The position numbers and the translations under genes were made by a program. DNA of 22,538 nt from a virus: positions 1-22,538 of the IMG/VR virus record IMGVR_UViG_3300010885_028194; one strand, given 5' to 3'. Shown piece after piece: positions 3,603 to 15,640 of this stretch. How positions within the stretch are numbered: position 1 is the stretch's first letter; each line of letters begins with the position of its first letter. The notes below the pieces were generated by a model. It saw only the letters and a list, made by a program, of their open reading frames with translations, was not told the DNA's origin and searched no databases.

Positions 3603-4484
3603 TTATTTTTTAAATTTATCCGGTAAATCTATAGAAATATTCGTAACTCTTAATGGTTGTTTACTTGTACCAAATTTATTAACTCTGTATTGACCATTAT
3701 TTAATAAATCACCAAAATATATACTATTTTCATATCTTATGTCAACTTCCTCAGTTATATCGTCATTTGAATCAAATTCAAAATAATATAAAAGGAATGT
3801 TTTATCTTCGTTGTATTTAGGACTTTCGATTTCTTCATTTTCTTCAATATGATAAAGAATCGTATTTTTTAATTCGTTATCATAAGACATATATGTTTCA
3901 ATACTGTAAGGAATTCTATCATCACATTCAATTTCACCATTACCATTACATTCATCACAAGTATTATATCCATTATGACAATTATCACACCTATTATAAC
4001 CATCACCATTACAATCATCACACGCAACTTTTCCATTACTATTACATTCATCACAAGAAGACGAATATCCTTCTATATCTTCTACTTCACCGTCACCACC
4101 ACATTCATTACAATCTATTTCTCCTGAACCATTACATGTATTGCAATCGTATTCACCATCACCACCACAATAATCACAAGAAACCTCACCATTACCGGAA
4201 CAATTCTCACAACGTATTTTAGTTTCTACATCACTAAAATTAATTACAGTAAACGTATATAGATTATTTACAATTTCTTCAACTATTTTTTTATCATCAT
4301 TACCTATTGATATTTGATAAGCAGTAAAAATTAATATCGGAAGGTCATTATTAGGGATTAATTCTTTAACAAAAGATAAACTATCACTTTGTAAAACTAT
4401 TTGGTATATTTTCTCGAGACTTTCACCTTTAACAAAAGGTTGAACTGATTTCGCAATACTGTAAATTCTATTTATATTACTCAT
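3603..4484 (-). CDS. Cysteine-rich protein with eight DnaJ-type CxxCxGxG repeats
   Basis: A 293-residue protein with three parts. Residues 1-90 are a helical region with no J-domain HPD motif. The middle (about 91-195) carries eight zinc-finger half-repeats of the DnaJ central-domain type, such as CENCSGNGEV, CDYCGGDGEY, CNTCNGSGEI, CNECGGDGEV, CDECNSNGKV and CDECNGNGEI. The C-terminal 100 residues are acidic and beta-prone. DnaJ itself has four CxxCxGxG motifs binding two zinc ions, so eight could bind about four. In DnaJ this region binds unfolded clients and supports DnaK activation; without a J domain this protein cannot act as a classical Hsp40. One late repeat (CDNCHNGYN) lacks a full GxG. 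On the minus strand alone, with a TATTTATA motif 10 bases upstream of its ATG. Confidence 0.75.
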   Translation of the reverse strand: MSNINRIYSIAKSVQPFVKGESLEKIYQIVLQSDSLSFVKELIPNNDLPILIFTAYQISIGNDDKKIVEEIVNNLYTFTVINFSDVETKIRCENCSGNGEVSCDYCGGDGEYDCNTCNGSGEIDCNECGGDGEVEDIEGYSSSCDECNSNGKVACDDCNGDGYNRCDNCHNGYNTCDECNGNGEIECDDRIPYSIETYMSYDNELKNTILYHIEENEEIESPKYNEDKTFLLYYFEFDSNDDITEEVDIRYENSIYFGDLLNNGQYRVNKFGTSKQPLRVTNISIDLPDKFKK

Positions 4485-5496: not shown

Positions 5497-5532
5497 AGAA
5501 AAAAAATAAGGGAGAATTTTACTCCCTTATTT
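5497..5532 (-). terminator. tmRNA terminator
   Basis: Inverted repeat AATAAGGGAG (5505-5514) with CTCCCTTATT (5522-5531), 7-base loop. Read on the minus strand it follows the tmRNA 3' CCA by 8 bases and runs into a T stretch complementary to the A run at 5499-5506. Confidence 0.85.
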
Positions 5533-5539
5533 ACTTTGA

Positions 5540-5942
5540 TGGTGGAGATGGAGGGAGTTGAACCCTCGTCTTGTTCATCTTGACAATTAATGACTACACG
5601 TTTATTTAGTTATTCATAACTAACAAATAGGAAGTTATAGATTAAGATAATTACTTCCAACAATCCCCAAACTGGATTTTCAAGAGCCATTTGATTTGCT
5701 CCAACACTCAAAGTGGTGTTACACCGTGAGCACTTCTGTTCCTAGGCTTATGTGCACCGGCCCGAAGGTATCATAACAATTAAGCTACAGATACAGACTC
5801 TTCTTGTCTAATAAGACCAGAGAAAGCCATTTTGTCTAAAACGTTGCCGTTTAAATTTTACCACCGTTGATTTAAGTCGTAGATGACATCCGACTACGTG
5901 CCATTAATCCCCAACAATGCCAATCAATTCCAAAGCATCCCC
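5540..5942 (-). ncRNA. ssrA: tmRNA (ssrA), 403 nt, one-piece, with an unusual tag
   Basis: Read on the minus strand, the 5' end GGGGATG pairs with CATCTCC just before A-CCA at the 3' end, giving a 7-bp acceptor stem with a G-U at the third pair, the alanyl-tRNA synthetase identity element. The T arm is GAGGG-TTCAACT-CCCTC. The 3' CCA is encoded. The tag frame runs from GGC at 5848-5846 to TAA at 5782-5780: 22 residues beginning GNVLDKMAF and ending EESVSVA, preceded by the charged alanine. As I recall, bacterial tags of this phylum are short and end YALAA, so both length and end are unusual. tmRNA with SmpB rescues stalled ribosomes and marks products for proteolysis. No SmpB gene is in the window. 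It has its own promoter and terminator. The structure call is firm; pseudoknots were not folded. Confidence 0.95.
5780..5848 (-). other. tmRNA tag-peptide reading frame
   Basis: 22 sense codons plus TAA. The sequence TTTAAAC immediately before GGC AAC resembles the region that sets the resume codon, and the end GTA GCT TAA resembles the usual GCA GCT TAA. The other two frames give a stop after three codons, or an arginine-glutamine-rich 13-mer with no usual features. The resume codon is inferred by analogy. Confidence 0.75.
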
Positions 5943-5962: not shown

Positions 5963-5993
5963 CAAAGATAAACATAAATATTCAATTTTCAAA
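5963..5993 (-). promoter_or_regulatory. Bacteroidota consensus promoter of the tmRNA
   Basis: On the minus strand TTTG (5993-5990), a 19-base spacer and TATCTTTG (5970-5963) match TTTG-N19-TAnnTTTG completely. The tmRNA 5' end lies 21 bases beyond the -7 box, leaving a short leader that RNase P would remove. The spacer is part of a long dyad. Confidence 0.75.
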
Positions 5994-7085: not shown

Positions 7086-7916
7086 ATGTCAAGAAATTTA
7101 GAATTATTAAAACAAGTATTATCAATTCCAACTCACACTTACGAAGAAGAACAAATGGTTCAATTTATTGTTGATTGGTGTAAACAAAACAATATTGAAT
7201 ATTATGTTGATGAACATCTTAATGTTTATGCAACCAAGCAAACCGGAGAAATTTCAGAAGATTTTATGTTTCCATGTGTAATATCTCACACAGATACAGT
7301 TCATAAGATTGATACAATTAACGTTTATGAGGAAATGAGAAGAAACTCAGACGGAGAATTATCATTATCTTTAAAAGCCTATAATGATGAAGGTAATCCA
7401 ACCGGAATCGGTGGAGATGATAAATGTGGGGTTTTTGCTTGTATTGAATTGTTAAAAGAATTACCAAATCTTAAGGCGGCGTTTTTTGTATCTGAAGAAA
7501 CCGGATGTCATGGTTCAAGATATGCGGATAAAAGTTTTTTTTCCAATGTGGGATACGCCATTCAGTTTGACGGACCTGAAAATTGGATGATAACCGAAAC
7601 TTGTTTTGGAACTAGATTATTTGACAGAAATGGTGAATTTTTTGAAAAATGTGATAAAATCATTAATGAAAATATGAATGATAAACGTAAATATATGACA
7701 CATCCGTATACTGATGTATATGCACTTAAAAGTTTATTTAATTTCTCTTGTATTAATATTTCTATAGGGTATTATGATTACCACACCAAAAATGAATACG
7801 TAGTTGTAGAAGATACATTCAATGGTATTGAGATTGGTAAAAAAATGATAGAAACATTAGGGTATAAAAAATATGAATACTCACAACAAAGTTCATCTAC
7901 ATTTAGATATTGGTAA
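7086..7916 (+). CDS. Compact M20-type zinc aminopeptidase (peptidase T-like)
   Basis: A 276-residue protein with the five metal-ligand positions of the M20/M28 clan in order: SHTDTVH (His68, Asp70), GIGGDDKCG (Asp111), SEETGCHGS (Glu137-Glu138 as general base and ligand), QFDGP (Asp162) and YDYHTKNEYV (His233). This is the arrangement of di-zinc aminopeptidases such as PepT, which trim short peptides in the cytoplasm. Typical PepT is about 400 residues because a dimerisation or lid domain sits between the fourth and fifth ligands. Here only about 70 residues separate them, so the lid is reduced or absent. That could change substrate length preference. It carries a host-type promoter box and is followed by a terminator. 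It could supply amino acids from degraded host peptides, which is inference. Confidence 0.85.
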   Translation: MSRNLELLKQVLSIPTHTYEEEQMVQFIVDWCKQNNIEYYVDEHLNVYATKQTGEISEDFMFPCVISHTDTVHKIDTINVYEEMRRNSDGELSLSLKAYNDEGNPTGIGGDDKCGVFACIELLKELPNLKAAFFVSEETGCHGSRYADKSFFSNVGYAIQFDGPENWMITETCFGTRLFDRNGEFFEKCDKIINENMNDKRKYMTHPYTDVYALKSLFNFSCINISIGYYDYHTKNEYVVVEDTFNGIEIGKKMIETLGYKKYEYSQQSSSTFRYW

Positions 7917-7923
7917 CAACTAA

Positions 7924-7953
7924 CCCCCCCCCCTCTTAATGAGGGGTTTTTTA
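7924..7953 (+). terminator. Terminator with a C10 tract
   Basis: CCCCTC (7930-7935) pairs with GAGGGG (7941-7946) across a TTAAT loop and is followed by TTTTTT. Six further C residues precede the stem, making a run of ten, which is odd in such an AT-rich sequence. The stem belongs to the same family as three other terminators here. Confidence 0.85.
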
Positions 7954-7964
7954 TTAAATGACGG

Positions 7965-7972
7965 TATTTATA
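7965..7972 (+). promoter_or_regulatory. TATTTATA element before the repeat-nuclease gene
   Basis: GTATTTATAATTG lies 20 bases before ATG 7993 and after the terminator. Its position supports starting the gene at 7993 rather than at the upstream in-frame codon at 7939, which lies inside the terminator. Confidence 0.4.
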
Positions 7973-7992
7973 ATTGTATTAAATACGTTTTA

Positions 7993-9534
7993 ATGAAAAA
8001 TCAACATAAATTGTTAATAGAACAAATACCGTTAAAATTTTCACATAAATCTCCTAAAGAATTAAATAAGGAGATTCAAAGTTTTATTATCAATAATAAT
8101 ATTAAAGGCCGTAAACAATTAATGCATTCTTCTGACTCTGAAAATGATTGGGGGACTGGTCAGATGTATAAAACGGCGGGACCACATGGATTAAACATAT
8201 TGCATAAATTATTTCCAAAAAAAACTCAGGAAGAAAAGTTAAAAGAAATTAAAAACTTTATTAAAAAAAATAATATTAAAAATCGCAATCAATTAAAGTA
8301 TTCTTCTGACATTGATAATGATTGGGGGGTAGGTGGTATGCATGTTTTTTTAAAAGATTTAAATTTTTTGGATAGTTTTTTTCCCGAAAAATCCAATGAA
8401 CAAAAAATAAAAGAAATTACTAATTTTGTTAAAAAAAATAAAATTAAAAATTATAACCAATTAATTCACACTTCTGACCGAGATAATGGATGGGGTCACG
8501 GGGGTATGGCTTCAACTGCAAAAGAACTAAATATATTAGATAATTTATTCCCTGAAAAATCTGATGAACAGAAAATAAAAGAAATTACCAATTTTGTTTT
8601 TAAAAATAAAATACAAAGTCGTACCGAATTAAAATTTTCTTCCAACCCTGAAAATGGATGGGGTCCGATGGCTATGTATAAAGAATCATTACCATCAAAA
8701 TTAAATATTTTAGATGACTTGTTTGGGTTTGAGAAAAAAGAATCAATAGGTGAGAAAAAAGTTTATGAATCACTATTAAAACTTGGGTATGAAGTAATAA
8801 AAGGAAGAAATGGGTTACGTCCTGGCGTCGCAGTAAGACAGTATACATTTAACGATTGTCATAGTCCAAAAGGAACAAATTTTTGTAACAGACTAAAAAT
8901 GGATTTTTATTTGATAACCGGTGAGAATGAAAAAATTGTTATTGAGTTTAATGGAGAACAACATTATAAATCCGTTAAAAGGTGGGGTGGAGATGAAGGA
9001 TTAGAATATCGTCAGGAATGTGACAGGATAAAAGAGGAATATTGTAAAAATAATAAAATTAGATTAATTGTTATTCCATATTGGGATTTAAATACAATTG
9101 ATGAGATAGTGACATCGGAAATAAAACCTTATAAAAAAATGAAAAAAAATATTAAATCAAAAACAGTAAAACTAACTGAGTCAGATTTGAGTAGAATTGT
9201 AAAACGTGTGATTAAAGAAAGTAAAATTAGTAATACAGTACTTAGAAGATTACATAATCCTGAAACTAAAAAATTTATTGAAAAATGTGCAATGAGTGAT
9301 ATAAAATACGCAAATGAACATAACCGTAGTCCAATGTATGTTTACAATCTCCTTCATGAAATTTTAAATAACGAAAAATTAGGAACTCAATTTTTGGTAC
9401 CTACTGACACTAACCCAAATGGTGATTTGGAATTTGATTTTGGTGGAAATACTGAAGATGAAGTTTTACATTTTTTGGAAGAAACATATGGAGATATGAT
9501 TTTAAATATTTATAAAAAATATAAGAAAAAATAA
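7993..9534 (+). CDS. Repeat-containing Vsr/PD-(D/E)XK-like nuclease fused to a phage C-terminal domain
   Basis: I start it at ATG 7993 (513 residues), since 7939 lies in a terminator. Residues 20-248 are four repeats of 56-58 residues, each with a helical start (EIxNFIKKNxIKNRxQL), an SSDxxNGWG core and an LNILDxLFPEK end; they are probably DNA-binding. Residues about 250-382 look like a PD-(D/E)XK or Vsr-type nuclease, with GEKKVYESLLKLGYEV, KMDFYL, IVIEFNGEQHYK and EYCKNNKIRLIVIPYW. This repeat-plus-nuclease plan is that of phage homing endonucleases. From Met383 (ATG 9139) a different 131-residue module follows, starting with a KTVKLTESDLSRIVKRVIKES helix of the kind seen at the N-terminus of other phage proteins. 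The fusion looks secondary. Overall nuclease call moderate; exact catalytic residues unproven. Confidence 0.7.
   Translation: MKNQHKLLIEQIPLKFSHKSPKELNKEIQSFIINNNIKGRKQLMHSSDSENDWGTGQMYKTAGPHGLNILHKLFPKKTQEEKLKEIKNFIKKNNIKNRNQLKYSSDIDNDWGVGGMHVFLKDLNFLDSFFPEKSNEQKIKEITNFVKKNKIKNYNQLIHTSDRDNGWGHGGMASTAKELNILDNLFPEKSDEQKIKEITNFVFKNKIQSRTELKFSSNPENGWGPMAMYKESLPSKLNILDDLFGFEKKESIGEKKVYESLLKLGYEVIKGRNGLRPGVAVRQYTFNDCHSPKGTNFCNRLKMDFYLITGENEKIVIEFNGEQHYKSVKRWGGDEGLEYRQECDRIKEEYCKNNKIRLIVIPYWDLNTIDEIVTSEIKPYKKMKKNIKSKTVKLTESDLSRIVKRVIKESKISNTVLRRLHNPETKKFIEKCAMSDIKYANEHNRSPMYVYNLLHEILNNEKLGTQFLVPTDTNPNGDLEFDFGGNTEDEVLHFLEETYGDMILNIYKKYKKK
8050..8736 (+). repeat. Four tandem protein-coding repeats of about 57 codons
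   Basis: These encode residues 20-77, 78-133, 134-189 and 190-248 of the repeat-nuclease protein. Units 2 and 3 are closest to each other in length and sequence; unit 4 diverges at its end (LNILDDLFGFEKK) where it joins the nuclease domain. The shared core is S-S/T-D/N-x-x-N-x-W-G. Confidence 0.85.
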
Positions 9535-9561: not shown

Positions 9562-9588
9562 AAAAAAGGGGATTAATTCCCCTTTTTT
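9562..9588. terminator. Bidirectional terminator between convergent genes
   Basis: AAAAAAGGGGA (9562-9572) pairs with TCCCCTTTTTT (9578-9588) across a TTAAT loop. It serves both the repeat-nuclease gene and the convergent clp gene. The clp stop codon (9575-9573) lies in the loop and its last codons form one arm. Confidence 0.85.
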
Positions 9589-11621
9589 GTTTTAGTAACC
9601 TTTTTTGGACTACCTTCTTTTTTGACTACGATAGTTTCACCATCATCAGTTGTCAAGGAATACTTGATACCTTCTTTGATGTTACCTTTAAGAACTTCTT
9701 CAGAAACAAAGTCCTCCACTTTATCTTGAATTGCTCTCTTCAAAGGTCTTGCTCCGTACATCTCATCAAACCCAACTTTAGAAATCATTTTTTCAATTGA
9801 TTCATCAAAGGTAATTTGATATTTCAAACCATCTAATCTTGTTTTAAGTTTAGATAATTCAATTCCAACTATCTTATTAACGTGTTCTTGTTTTAATGAA
9901 TTAAAAACAACGATATCATCAATACGATTTATAAACTCAGGAGAGAAGAATTTTTTAAGTTCTTTCTGTAATGTTTCTTTACGTAGTTCTTCGTTTGCAA
10001 ATACGTTATTAGCATTTGTGAATCCTACACCGGCACCAAAGTCTTGCATTTTCTTAATACCCAAGTTTGATGTCATGATGATAATACAATTCTTAAAATT
10101 GATTTTACGACCTAAGCCATCTGTCATGTGACCATCATCCAACATTTGAAGTAACGCTGAGAAAATATCTTTATTTGCTTTCTCAATCTCATCAAATAAT
10201 ATAACTGAATATGGTTTATTTTTAACTTGTTCTGTTAACTGTCCACCTTCCTCATATCCAACATATCCTGGAGGTGCTCCGACTAAACGAGATACAGTAT
10301 GTTTTTCTTGGTATTCTGACATATCAACACGAATCAATGAATCTTCACTACCAAACACTTCTTTCGCTAATTGTTTTGCCAAATAAGTTTTACCAACACC
10401 GGTGGACCCTAAGAAAATAAATGAACCTATAGGTCTATTAGGGTCTTTTATACCCAATCTATTTCTCCTGATTGACTTTGTTATTCTTTTTACAGCCTCT
10501 TCTTGACCAATAACTTTATTATTTAGATTGGAATCCAAATCAACTAATGCTTTTGTATCATCAGCGTTTAATTTACTAACAGGTATTTTAGTCATATTAG
10601 AAACCACATCATATACTAACTCAAGAGAAACTTCTCTTTTTTGAGTTGATAAACCCTGTTCAAATTTCTTTTTTTCCTCATCTAATTTTGCCAAAATCTT
10701 TCGTTCTTTATCTCTCAATTCAGCGGCTTCCTCATATTTTTGAGTTTTAACCACATTTAATTTTTGAAGTTTTATTTCGGCCGCCTTTGATTTTAGTTCT
10801 TCAATTATTTCAGGTAATTTCATATCAACTTGACATCTAGCACCAACTTCATCAAGAATATCGATTGCCTTATCCGGAAACTCTCTATCTGTGATATATC
10901 TTTCTGCCAAGTTAACACATGACATCAATACTTCATCAGTGAATAATACTTTGTGGAAATTTTGATATTTCTCTTTTAAGTTACTTAGAATTTCAAAAGT
11001 TTGTTCTTTGGTAGCACCATCAACAATCACCTTTTGGAATCTACGTTCCAACGCTCCGTCTTTTTCAAAGTTCTTACGATATTCATCAAGAGTCGTAGCA
11101 CCAATACATTGTATTTCACCTCTCGCTAATGCCGGTTTGAATATGTTAGATGCGTCTAACGAACCTGATGAATTACCAGCACCTACAATGGTATGTATTT
11201 CATCAATAAAAATAATAATATCAGGATTAGCTTGTAATTCTTCGATTATTACCTTCATTCTTTCTTCAAATTGCCCACGATACTTTGTCCCGGCAACAAT
11301 TGAAGTCATTTCTAATGAAAGGATTCTTTTGTCCGCTAAATTTCGGGGACAATCACCTTCATAGATTTTCATGGCTAAACCTTCAGCAATTGCGGTTTTA
11401 CCACAACCCGGTTCACCAATAATAATTGGATTGTTTTTCTTTCTACGAGAAAGAATTTGTGCAATCCTAAGAATTTCTTTTTCTCTACCAACTACGGGGT
11501 CAAGCTTACCTTGTTCAGCCAATTTAATCAAATCTCTGCTAAAGTTATCTAACGCCGGTGTTTGAGAGTCAGAAATCTTTTTACTTTCTTTCCTGTTTTC
11601 ATCATCCATTGATTCTATCAT
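9573..11621 (-). CDS. clpC: ClpC-type AAA+ unfoldase lacking the N-domain
   Basis: A 682-residue protein with two AAA+ modules. D1: Walker A GEPGCGKT (69-76), pore loop KYRG (113-116), Walker B IIIFIDE (135-141) and ALERRF (190-195). A short middle domain has the UVR-like [13 protein letters not shown] (295-307) typical of ClpC. D2: Walker A GSTGVGKT (405-412), pore loop GYVG (452-455), Walker B VILFDE (473-478), TSNLG (517-521), GVGF (531-534) at the ClpP-docking loop, PEFINR (561-566) and GARPLKR (623-629). ClpB disaggregases have a long coiled-coil middle domain and no such loop, so this is a ClpP-partner type. Host ClpC is about 840 residues; the roughly 150-residue adaptor-binding N-domain is missing, replaced by 22 polar residues. 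No ClpP gene is in the window, so it would have to use host ClpP. Divergent from hsp20; a TATCTTTG box lies 17-24 bases upstream. Confidence 0.93.
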
Positions 11622-11815: not shown

Positions 11816-12202
11816 ATGTATTACAAATTTTCAAACTTAGACAACCTTTTTGATGGGTTTTTCGGTCAACCAACATATAGTAGTATGGTTGTAAAAAACT
11901 CAAATAAAGAACCTTATGAGGTTAACTACACAAAAGATGGGGCTTACTTATTTTTTGATGTTCCGGGTTTTAATAAAACAAACCTAAAAGTAGAGATGGA
12001 AGGTGGTATTCTTTACATTGATGGTAAAAGAACCTATAAACTAAATGGTGAGGACTCAGAAAAGACAATCTCACAAAAATTTAAGATTGGACAAGAGTAT
12101 AATCCTGATAACATTGAAGCAACTATAGAAGATGGTATTCTAACTGTGTTTGTCGCTAACTACAAGAAAACGGAAAAGAAAAAAAGAATAAGTTTATTGT
12201 AA
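11816..12202 (+). CDS. hsp20: Small heat-shock protein (Hsp20 / alpha-crystallin family)
   Basis: A 128-residue protein with the plan of bacterial small heat-shock proteins: a short N-terminal arm with aromatic residues (LDNLFDGFFG, 8-17), an alpha-crystallin domain (about 34-117) including FDVPGFNKTNLKVEMEGGILYIDGKR, and the conserved late block EDGILTVFVANYKK (105-118) corresponding to A-x-x-x-n-G-v-L. The C-terminal RISLL provides the I-x-I/L anchor used for oligomer assembly. Such proteins hold unfolded clients without ATP; Hsp20 is also common in T4-like cyanophages. Here it is divergent from the N-domain-less clpC across a repeat-rich region, which suggests joint control, and is followed by a strong terminator. 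The leader is A-rich with no Shine-Dalgarno site. The assignment is firm; its client proteins are unknown. Confidence 0.93.
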   Translation: MYYKFSNLDNLFDGFFGQPTYSSMVVKNSNKEPYEVNYTKDGAYLFFDVPGFNKTNLKVEMEGGILYIDGKRTYKLNGEDSEKTISQKFKIGQEYNPDNIEATIEDGILTVFVANYKKTEKKKRISLL

Positions 12203-14329: not shown

Positions 14330-15640
14330 ATGGCAGACTTACAACCACTTGGAAGCGAAAAACTTCAGGGAATGGAGAAAATTCAAAGAATCTTAGAAAT
14401 TGCTAGATTTAGAGAAAATCAACCATCTGTAGTTAATGAAACTTCAAGAAACGAGTACAATATAACTTTAGTTGATGGAAACGAATATCAAATCGTTAAA
14501 GAAAAATCAGGATATATTATTAAAAAAACTATATCAGAATCTGAAACAGATTATATTGAGCCTATGAAAAATAGGAAATATTATCCATCATATTCACAAG
14601 CTCTAAAGAGATTGAATTTAATGATTAAAGAAAATAATTCTTTAAATAATAATAAAGAAGGTATTTCTTTATTCTCTGAACAAAAAAAGTTCACATTAAA
14701 AACTCCAGAAAAAAAAACTCCTGATGTAGGAGATGAGATTGAGAATGTACCTCCTCCACCTCCATCACCGGCAGGAGAAGAAACACCTCCTCCTCCACCA
14801 ATGGGTGACGAAGGGTCTGAAGAAATGCCACCAGCACCACCAATGGGTGATGAAGGGTCTGAAGAAATGCCTCCTGCCCCACCAATGGGTGATGAAGGAC
14901 AATCAGATGATGAAGATGTTACCTTTAAATCAATTCAAAAATTAGTTGGTAAAGTATCTCAAAAAATTAGAACATTAGAAGAAAAACAAGAGTTAAGTTC
15001 TTCAGATGCGAAATATATTATAAATTCAATTTTATCGGCGGTTGATTTGTCAAAATTAGAATCTGATGATTTAGATGAAATCATGTCTAAATTTGAAGAT
15101 GTTGGCGAAGAAAGTGATATGTCAGGTATGGAAGATGAAGAAGGTTCTGATGATGAAGAAGCGACCCCTCCTCCACCAATGGGTGATGAAGGTGAAGAAC
15201 CTTCATCTGAAATGGGTGAAAGTTGGGATACATTAGGTACCGACATTGCAACTAAAACTCTTTCTAAAATGATTACACCGGGTCAATTCAAAGAAGAAGA
15301 AGATGAAGACGCTGGACATATTGGAATGATTGCTGATGAGTTATTTGTTGAATCTAAAATTGAAGATATATTAACAAAATATTTTGTTATTAGTGAAGAT
15401 GAAAAAAAATTCAATAAAGTGATTGAATCAAATAGAAAAACTACAAATAAGATTAAAACTAAAAACGTATCTGAAGAAATAAAAAGACTTTCAGAATCAG
15501 TTAAACAAGAAATAACATCTAAGAAGTTTATTAGAGAAAAAACAAATGTTAAGTTTGTTGGTAAAACAAATAAGAAAAATTTAGTATTTGAAAGTAACAA
15601 TAAACAATATAAAATAACACCTGAAGGAAATATTCTATGA
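14330..15640 (+). CDS. Acidic, proline-rich repeat protein, first gene of a four-gene operon
   Basis: A 436-residue protein. Residues 1-110 form a small domain with a helix (GMEKIQRILEIARFRENQ) and a beta segment (NEYNITLVDGNEYQIVKEKSGYIIKK). Residues about 137-195 are low complexity, with three 14-residue units like PPAPPMGDEGSEEM. A helical domain follows (about 200-265), then another acidic stretch with a fourth PPPPMGDEG copy, a helical segment (about 335-400), and a basic C-terminal beta piece similar in style to the N-terminal one (VKFVGKTNKKNLVFESNNKQYKI). It begins the operon that leads up to the terminase gene, so a structural or head-assembly role is plausible. The disordered acidic linkers would suit a scaffold-like protein. 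I do not recognise the family. Confidence 0.8.
   Translation: MADLQPLGSEKLQGMEKIQRILEIARFRENQPSVVNETSRNEYNITLVDGNEYQIVKEKSGYIIKKTISESETDYIEPMKNRKYYPSYSQALKRLNLMIKENNSLNNNKEGISLFSEQKKFTLKTPEKKTPDVGDEIENVPPPPPSPAGEETPPPPPMGDEGSEEMPPAPPMGDEGSEEMPPAPPMGDEGQSDDEDVTFKSIQKLVGKVSQKIRTLEEKQELSSSDAKYIINSILSAVDLSKLESDDLDEIMSKFEDVGEESDMSGMEDEEGSDDEEATPPPPMGDEGEEPSSEMGESWDTLGTDIATKTLSKMITPGQFKEEEDEDAGHIGMIADELFVESKIEDILTKYFVISEDEKKFNKVIESNRKTTNKIKTKNVSEEIKRLSESVKQEITSKKFIREKTNVKFVGKTNKKNLVFESNNKQYKITPEGNIL
14786..14911 (+). repeat. Three tandem 42-base repeats
   Basis: Units at 14786-14827, 14828-14869 and 14870-14911 encode PPPPPMGDEGSEEM, PPAPPMGDEGSEEM and PPAPPMGDEGQSDD. A partial fourth copy (PPPPMGDEGEE) lies near 15170. 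The DNA units are near-identical, so the number may vary between relatives. Confidence 0.85.

Follow-up and report, generated by a model that had tools for sequence, protein, structure and literature searches.

The window analysed here, the whole 22,538-nucleotide stretch of IMG/VR virus record IMGVR_UViG_3300010885_028194, carries what a first-pass annotation had described as a complete phage tmRNA with a long, non-standard tag, whose end could direct rescued phage products to another protease or spare them. Phage tmRNAs are known, having been found in 402 of 18,146 phage genomes in 2021 (PMC9004378). Huge phages, in which both tmRNA and SmpB are known (Al-Shayeb et al. 2020, PMC7162821), resemble the present case in that the tmRNA is borne by the phage, with SmpB in some genomes; the passages of that paper in which these genes are named mention neither a tag nor a link to ClpC, and ARAGORN was the program used there. 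The features of the locus, with window positions, are as follows.

5963..5993 (-): Bacteroidota-type promoter, TTTG-N19-TATCTTTG, 20 nt upstream of the tmRNA gene
5540..5942 (-): tmRNA (ssrA) gene, one-piece form, full-length match to Rfam RF00023
5780..5848 (-): tag frame GNVLDKMAFSGLIRQEESVSVA plus stop codon TAA, resume codon GGC, placed by the model-aligned resume codon and the tag profile
5504..5532 (-): intrinsic terminator, hairpin of 11 pairs, then a T run

A covariance search with the full RF00023 model matched positions 5942-5540 (-) at 92.5 bits (E 3.6e-35), the gathering cut-off being 47 bits. The acceptor stem is paired at 7/7 positions and contains G3:U70, and CCA is encoded, so that the description of a functional-looking tmRNA is supported; the RNA is predicted to be charged with alanine and to take part in SmpB-dependent tagging of stalled chains. 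The model also placed the resume codon at the GGC from which the tag had first been read (5848-5846, with the stop at 5782-5780), and its alignment ruled out a resume codon at any other position. Translation from this codon yielded GNVLDKMAFSGLIRQEESVSVA, confirming the proposed 22-residue tag with its unusual end. The segment following the tag, the pseudoknot region, aligned poorly to RF00023 in the window tmRNA and contained gaps in the alignment of phage tmRNAs. ARAGORN reported neither the window tmRNA nor most of the relatives tested, suggesting that surveys based on this program undercount such phage tmRNAs.

Related loci were collected with two baits. Use of the terminase gave 80 viral loci, with a full tmRNA in 12 of the 50 contigs searched, while use of ClpC gave 44 further contigs with a tmRNA; the resulting set of 57 tmRNAs includes that of the window. 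Scanning with a tag profile, in which the window tag scores E 1.9e-12, revealed extra cases beyond the Rfam search, and the total of 69 distinct tags was reached by searching with IUPAC codon patterns built only on the tag. No match was obtained with an exact pattern taken from the tmRNA's 3' half, and tblastn detected the same tag in no cultured phage, the short query making this a weak test. All 57 tmRNAs contain G3:U70, an A four bases ahead of the resume codon (position -4) and an open tag frame whose product, 21 or 22 residues long, is homologous to the window tag, and the acceptor stem is fully paired (7/7) in 56 of them. The loss of frame in close relatives, named beforehand as grounds for rejecting the tag, was therefore not seen. 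An origin of tmRNA and tag by artefact or chance was excluded by the RF00023 match and by the recovery of 84 tag-bearing loci, against 0 in reversed sequence.

The proposed expression signals were examined as well. A terminator had been claimed and was recovered as the 11-pair hairpin and T run at 5532-5504 (-), terminator-like sites in the region numbering 2 against 0.2 expected. Taken by itself within the window, the promoter element is not significant (2 found versus 1.7 expected), whereas the same element precedes 37/57 of the related phage tmRNAs versus 0.36 expected. TTTG-N19-TATCTTTG is a promoter form known from Bacteroidota, and its occurrence upstream of these 37 tmRNAs points to Bacteroidota as the host phylum.

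The tag is not peculiar to one contig. Among the 69 distinct homologous tags from related T4-like phages, 59 consist of 21 residues and 10 of 22, with the consensus GN[VT][LF][NA]K[ML]xxhGLh[RK]E...VxA and with G1, N2, K6, G11, L12 and the final Ala near-invariant. The last residue is Ala in 66/69 tags and the end is AA in 15/69, and the host-type YALAA end is missing from essentially all of them. The first-pass annotation had stressed the C-terminus; the end does differ from that of the hosts, but the conserved core KMxxhGLhR is equally distinctive. It had also anticipated that conservation among relatives would indicate a selected function, and this expectation was matched at the level of the peptide. 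Among 50 distinct nucleotide versions of the tag, differences at codon positions 1/2/3 were 0.39/0.22/0.52 and the median dN/dS was 0.36 (Nei-Gojobori). Single-base codon differences were synonymous in 3909 cases versus 2054 nonsynonymous (66% synonymous versus 26% expected), counts that are not independent because the sequences share ancestry. Furthermore, Arg was retained through AGA and CGT and Leu through CTT and TTA, codons differing at two positions. Differences of this kind fit selection on the peptide rather than RNA structure alone.

Comparison with cellular tmRNAs showed how far the tag departs from that of its hosts. The commonest tmRNA tag length is 10 (PMC11915505). Trusted tags from Bacteroidota genomes (n = 38) comprised 28 of 9, 9 of 10 and 1 of 8 residues and mostly followed G...[YF]A[LM]AA, in agreement with the first-pass annotation, in which host tags are shorter and end differently. 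The one-piece tmRNA of Bacteroidota (RF00023) shares with the phage form the G3:U70 tRNA-like domain, a GGC/GGA resume codon in the same context and the Bacteroidota promoter; unlike it, the phage tmRNA encodes 21-22 rather than 8-10 residues without the [YF]A[LM]AA end and carries, downstream of the tag, a conserved segment of its own, GGTCGG/GGAACAGAAG (GGAACAGAAG in 47/57 phage versus 0/38 cellular tmRNAs). A tree built from 53 phage and 38 Bacteroidota tmRNAs placed the phage sequences in a single clade with support 1.0. A tag borrowed from the host was rejected, as the tag profile found no full-length phage-type tag in the genomes sampled (396 from Bacteroidota, 398 from Flavobacteriales), partial matches in these ~790 genomes reaching E 0.008 at best; as a positive control, the profile matched 8/9 phage records, with E values from 1e-12 to 3e-8. 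Separately, a Tannerella genome contained a second tmRNA-like locus of ~450 nt with an implausible ARAGORN tag, and a few other Bacteroidota genomes gave two tmRNA matches.

As Ala is the last residue of 66 tags and 15 of them end in AA, host ClpX might still recognise them. Host proteases, ClpXP or others, might accordingly read the tag, the tmRNA serving as added rescue capacity, the longer peptide being a drifted yet constrained variant and any phage ClpC an independent proteostasis gene. Other phage tmRNAs with host-like tags, such as GEDNFALAA of Pelagibacter phage Mosig, would fit such an arrangement. A peptide of 21-22 residues in which G1 and G11 are invariant and N2, K6 and L12 nearly so, however, far exceeds the needs of a C-terminal AA signal, and the YALAA end is gone from essentially all of the tags. 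A second gene of the window bears on this explanation; it is located, together with two neighbours, as follows.

9573..11621 (-): ClpC-like AAA+ unfoldase of 682 aa without N-domain, with ClpP-docking loop VGF
11816..12202 (+): small heat-shock protein (HSP20), a proteostasis neighbour
3603..4484 (-): DnaJ-type CxxCxGxG zinc-finger repeat protein (below the Pfam cut-off), a possible proteostasis neighbour

The phage ClpC contains two AAA+ rings with Walker, pore and arginine motifs, the pore and Walker motifs being intact. Among solved structures it matches those of ClpC best, starting at residue 150 of the latter; it has the D1 and D2 rings, the pore loops and the ClpP loop in common with ClpC (PDB 6em8, 3j3s), whereas the whole N-domain is absent. 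Since all 97 complete phage ClpC ORFs start no more than 33 residues before the window's start, the N-domain is missing in 97/97, and a ClpP loop of the [ILV]GF type is kept in 93/93 distinct sequences. Identity to cellular relatives is ~45-52%, and no close bacterial source above ~52% was found. In ClpA and ClpC the N-domain is the adaptor-binding site. When ClpA of Leptospira lacks this domain, it reportedly continues to degrade ssrA-tagged eGFP and is no longer inhibited by ClpS (PMC12493166).

In nearly all relatives the tmRNA lies ~2-7 kb behind this gene on the same strand. Across 13 terminase-found contigs, the window included, the distance was 2.0-6.7 kb, and in 12/13 the tmRNA was behind ClpC and on the same strand. 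The tag was present behind ClpC in 55/56 ClpC-found loci with at least 4 kb of sequence behind the gene, and, conversely, ClpC (55-88% identical to that of the window) was present upstream in 60/61 loci found by the tag pattern alone and having at least 5 kb of upstream sequence. In one exception, locus L436 from the rearranged contig G003, the tmRNA was present with ClpC on the other strand; ClpC contig G057 contained no tag within 5.5 kb. As the spacing varies, genes must come and go between the two. Linkage may in part be inherited gene order, all tags being derived from one phage lineage. In the window, a peptidase M20/M42-like protein (7086-7916) is encoded between ClpC and the tmRNA, and a further gene encodes a 531-aa protein with ~4 copies of a ~60-residue unit (NKIKNxxQLxxxSDxxNGWGxGxM) and no Pfam match (7939-9534).

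Linkage that is nearly strict from both directions argues against reading by host proteases with an independent ClpC. On the other side, N-domain-less ClpC occurs without any tmRNA in the related huge phages LR745206 and LR756502, from which it follows that the unfoldase has work beyond the tag. Weighing these points together with the tag ends, we regard reading by host proteases as rather unlikely. The window's N-domain-less ClpC, to which the tag had not previously been linked, is instead a candidate protease partner. Because a long, conserved, non-host tag adjoins an unfoldase lacking the adaptor domain, the simplest account is a phage-owned branch of trans-translation and degradation in which the tag would serve as a private degron and ClpC as its direct reader, and we lean slightly towards it; recognition itself is a prediction.

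Under this private-degron scheme, the phage tmRNA would be made during infection from the host-type promoter and charged with alanine. Together with SmpB, either that of the host or, in some relatives, the phage's own, it would free ribosomes stalled on broken mRNAs, adding (A)GNVLDKMAFSGLIRQEESVSVA to the stalled chains in place of the short host tag, G...[YF]ALAA. Specific affinity would come from the conserved core K[LM]xxhGLh[RK], and the C-terminal VxA end would engage the pore of the N-domain-less ring, which would then hand the tagged protein to ClpP of the host or, in some relatives, of the phage. Whether the whole clade operates in this way, with its own tmRNA, a degron of 21-22 residues and a phage ClpC as reader (in some cases with SmpB and ClpP), apart from the ClpXP of the host and the adaptors that serve it, is a proposition that we consider evenly balanced.

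Such accessory genes were found in a minority of contigs, which are fragments: SmpB is encoded in 7/50, mostly adjoining the tmRNA, and ClpP in 14/50, away from ClpC, most contigs having neither. The SmpB sequences read are apparently complete, including the C-terminal tail, as are those of ClpP, which have what look like the catalytic Ser and His motifs.

ClpC-type rings are capable of remodelling as well as degradation, and with the host-type LAA end lost and HSP20 and a DnaJ-type zinc-finger protein encoded nearby, the tag might be no degron at all, instead sparing, sorting or marking rescued phage proteins for refolding by ClpC or small heat-shock proteins or for sequestration. The ClpP-docking loop in 93/93 phage ClpC sequences and the ClpP genes of some phages speak against this, as does the absence of a similar end from other phage proteins (none alike among 2052 distinct ORF C-termini, which also excluded mimicry of a phage-protein C-terminus by the tag), and we consider such a role improbable. 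A further possibility starts from the rescue of ribosomes on cleaved mRNA, an established role of tmRNA: the phage copy could mainly relieve stalling caused by an mRNA-cleaving host defence, its distinct tag merely avoiding the host pathway by evading host adaptors. Avoidance by itself, however, does not account for a specific 21-residue motif conserved over a long range beside ClpC proteins that are only 55-88% identical to that of the window, making this counter-defence role very improbable.

The window belongs to a T4-like phage with a large terminase and a T4-type portal, the nearest terminases, at ~28% identity, being those of Flavobacterium phages and of an uncultured huge phage. The tmRNA, ClpC and the zinc-finger protein are encoded on the minus strand, all other genes of recognised families on the plus strand. 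Near the terminase and portal genes, positions 14330-15640 encode a protein with proline/acid-rich repeats (GSEEMPPAPPMGDE). The phages carrying this tmRNA form a large group from lakes, with Bacteroidota as hosts. Moraphages, described in 2025, are T4-related, mostly freshwater phages of 200-307 kb with predicted Bacteroidota hosts (PMC12619734); they share a ClpA-type ATPase and HSP20/DnaJ genes with the window's phage, which from agreeing gene content, habitat and contig size is likely a moraphage, and tmRNA is unmentioned in their description.

The ssrA tag of Mesoplasma florum is not known to be related to the phage tag. In that organism Lon is the sole ssrA-degrading protease, as cited in PMC10873288, so that a changed tag is matched to a different protease, as proposed for the phage; the system differs in using Lon rather than ClpC and in belonging to a mollicute bacterium rather than a phage. 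The tmRNAs of Pelagibacter phage Mosig and phage Melnitz (PMC9004378) are likewise phage-encoded, but are of the two-piece form and encode host-like tags. No report of this tag family, of peptide selection on phage tags or of pairing with a phage unfoldase was found in the open-access literature. The locus offers a testable case in which a virus would both recode the ssrA degron and bring the reader for it, a parallel to the Mycoplasma switch to Lon; if true, it would also provide an unfoldase with an orthogonal degron for Bacteroidota.

Other RNAs were observed in related and huge phages. In five relatives (L085, L090, L091, L092, L093) GOLLD RNA (275-330 bits) and the tmRNA are no more than ~2.5 kb apart, and in two huge phages, of 634 kb and 642 kb, GOLLD RNA lies near ClpC (L400, 17601-18006; L401, 14013-14419). 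A second phage tmRNA with a long tag (~35-36 residues, ending PAAV), unrelated to that of the window, was found in the uncultured 484-kb huge phage LR756508 (L403, 1501-1947), ARAGORN giving a doubtful tag for it; the same genome has a 112-nt RNA (L406) that looks like a lone tRNA-like domain and in this resembles the one in mycobacteriophage DS6A.
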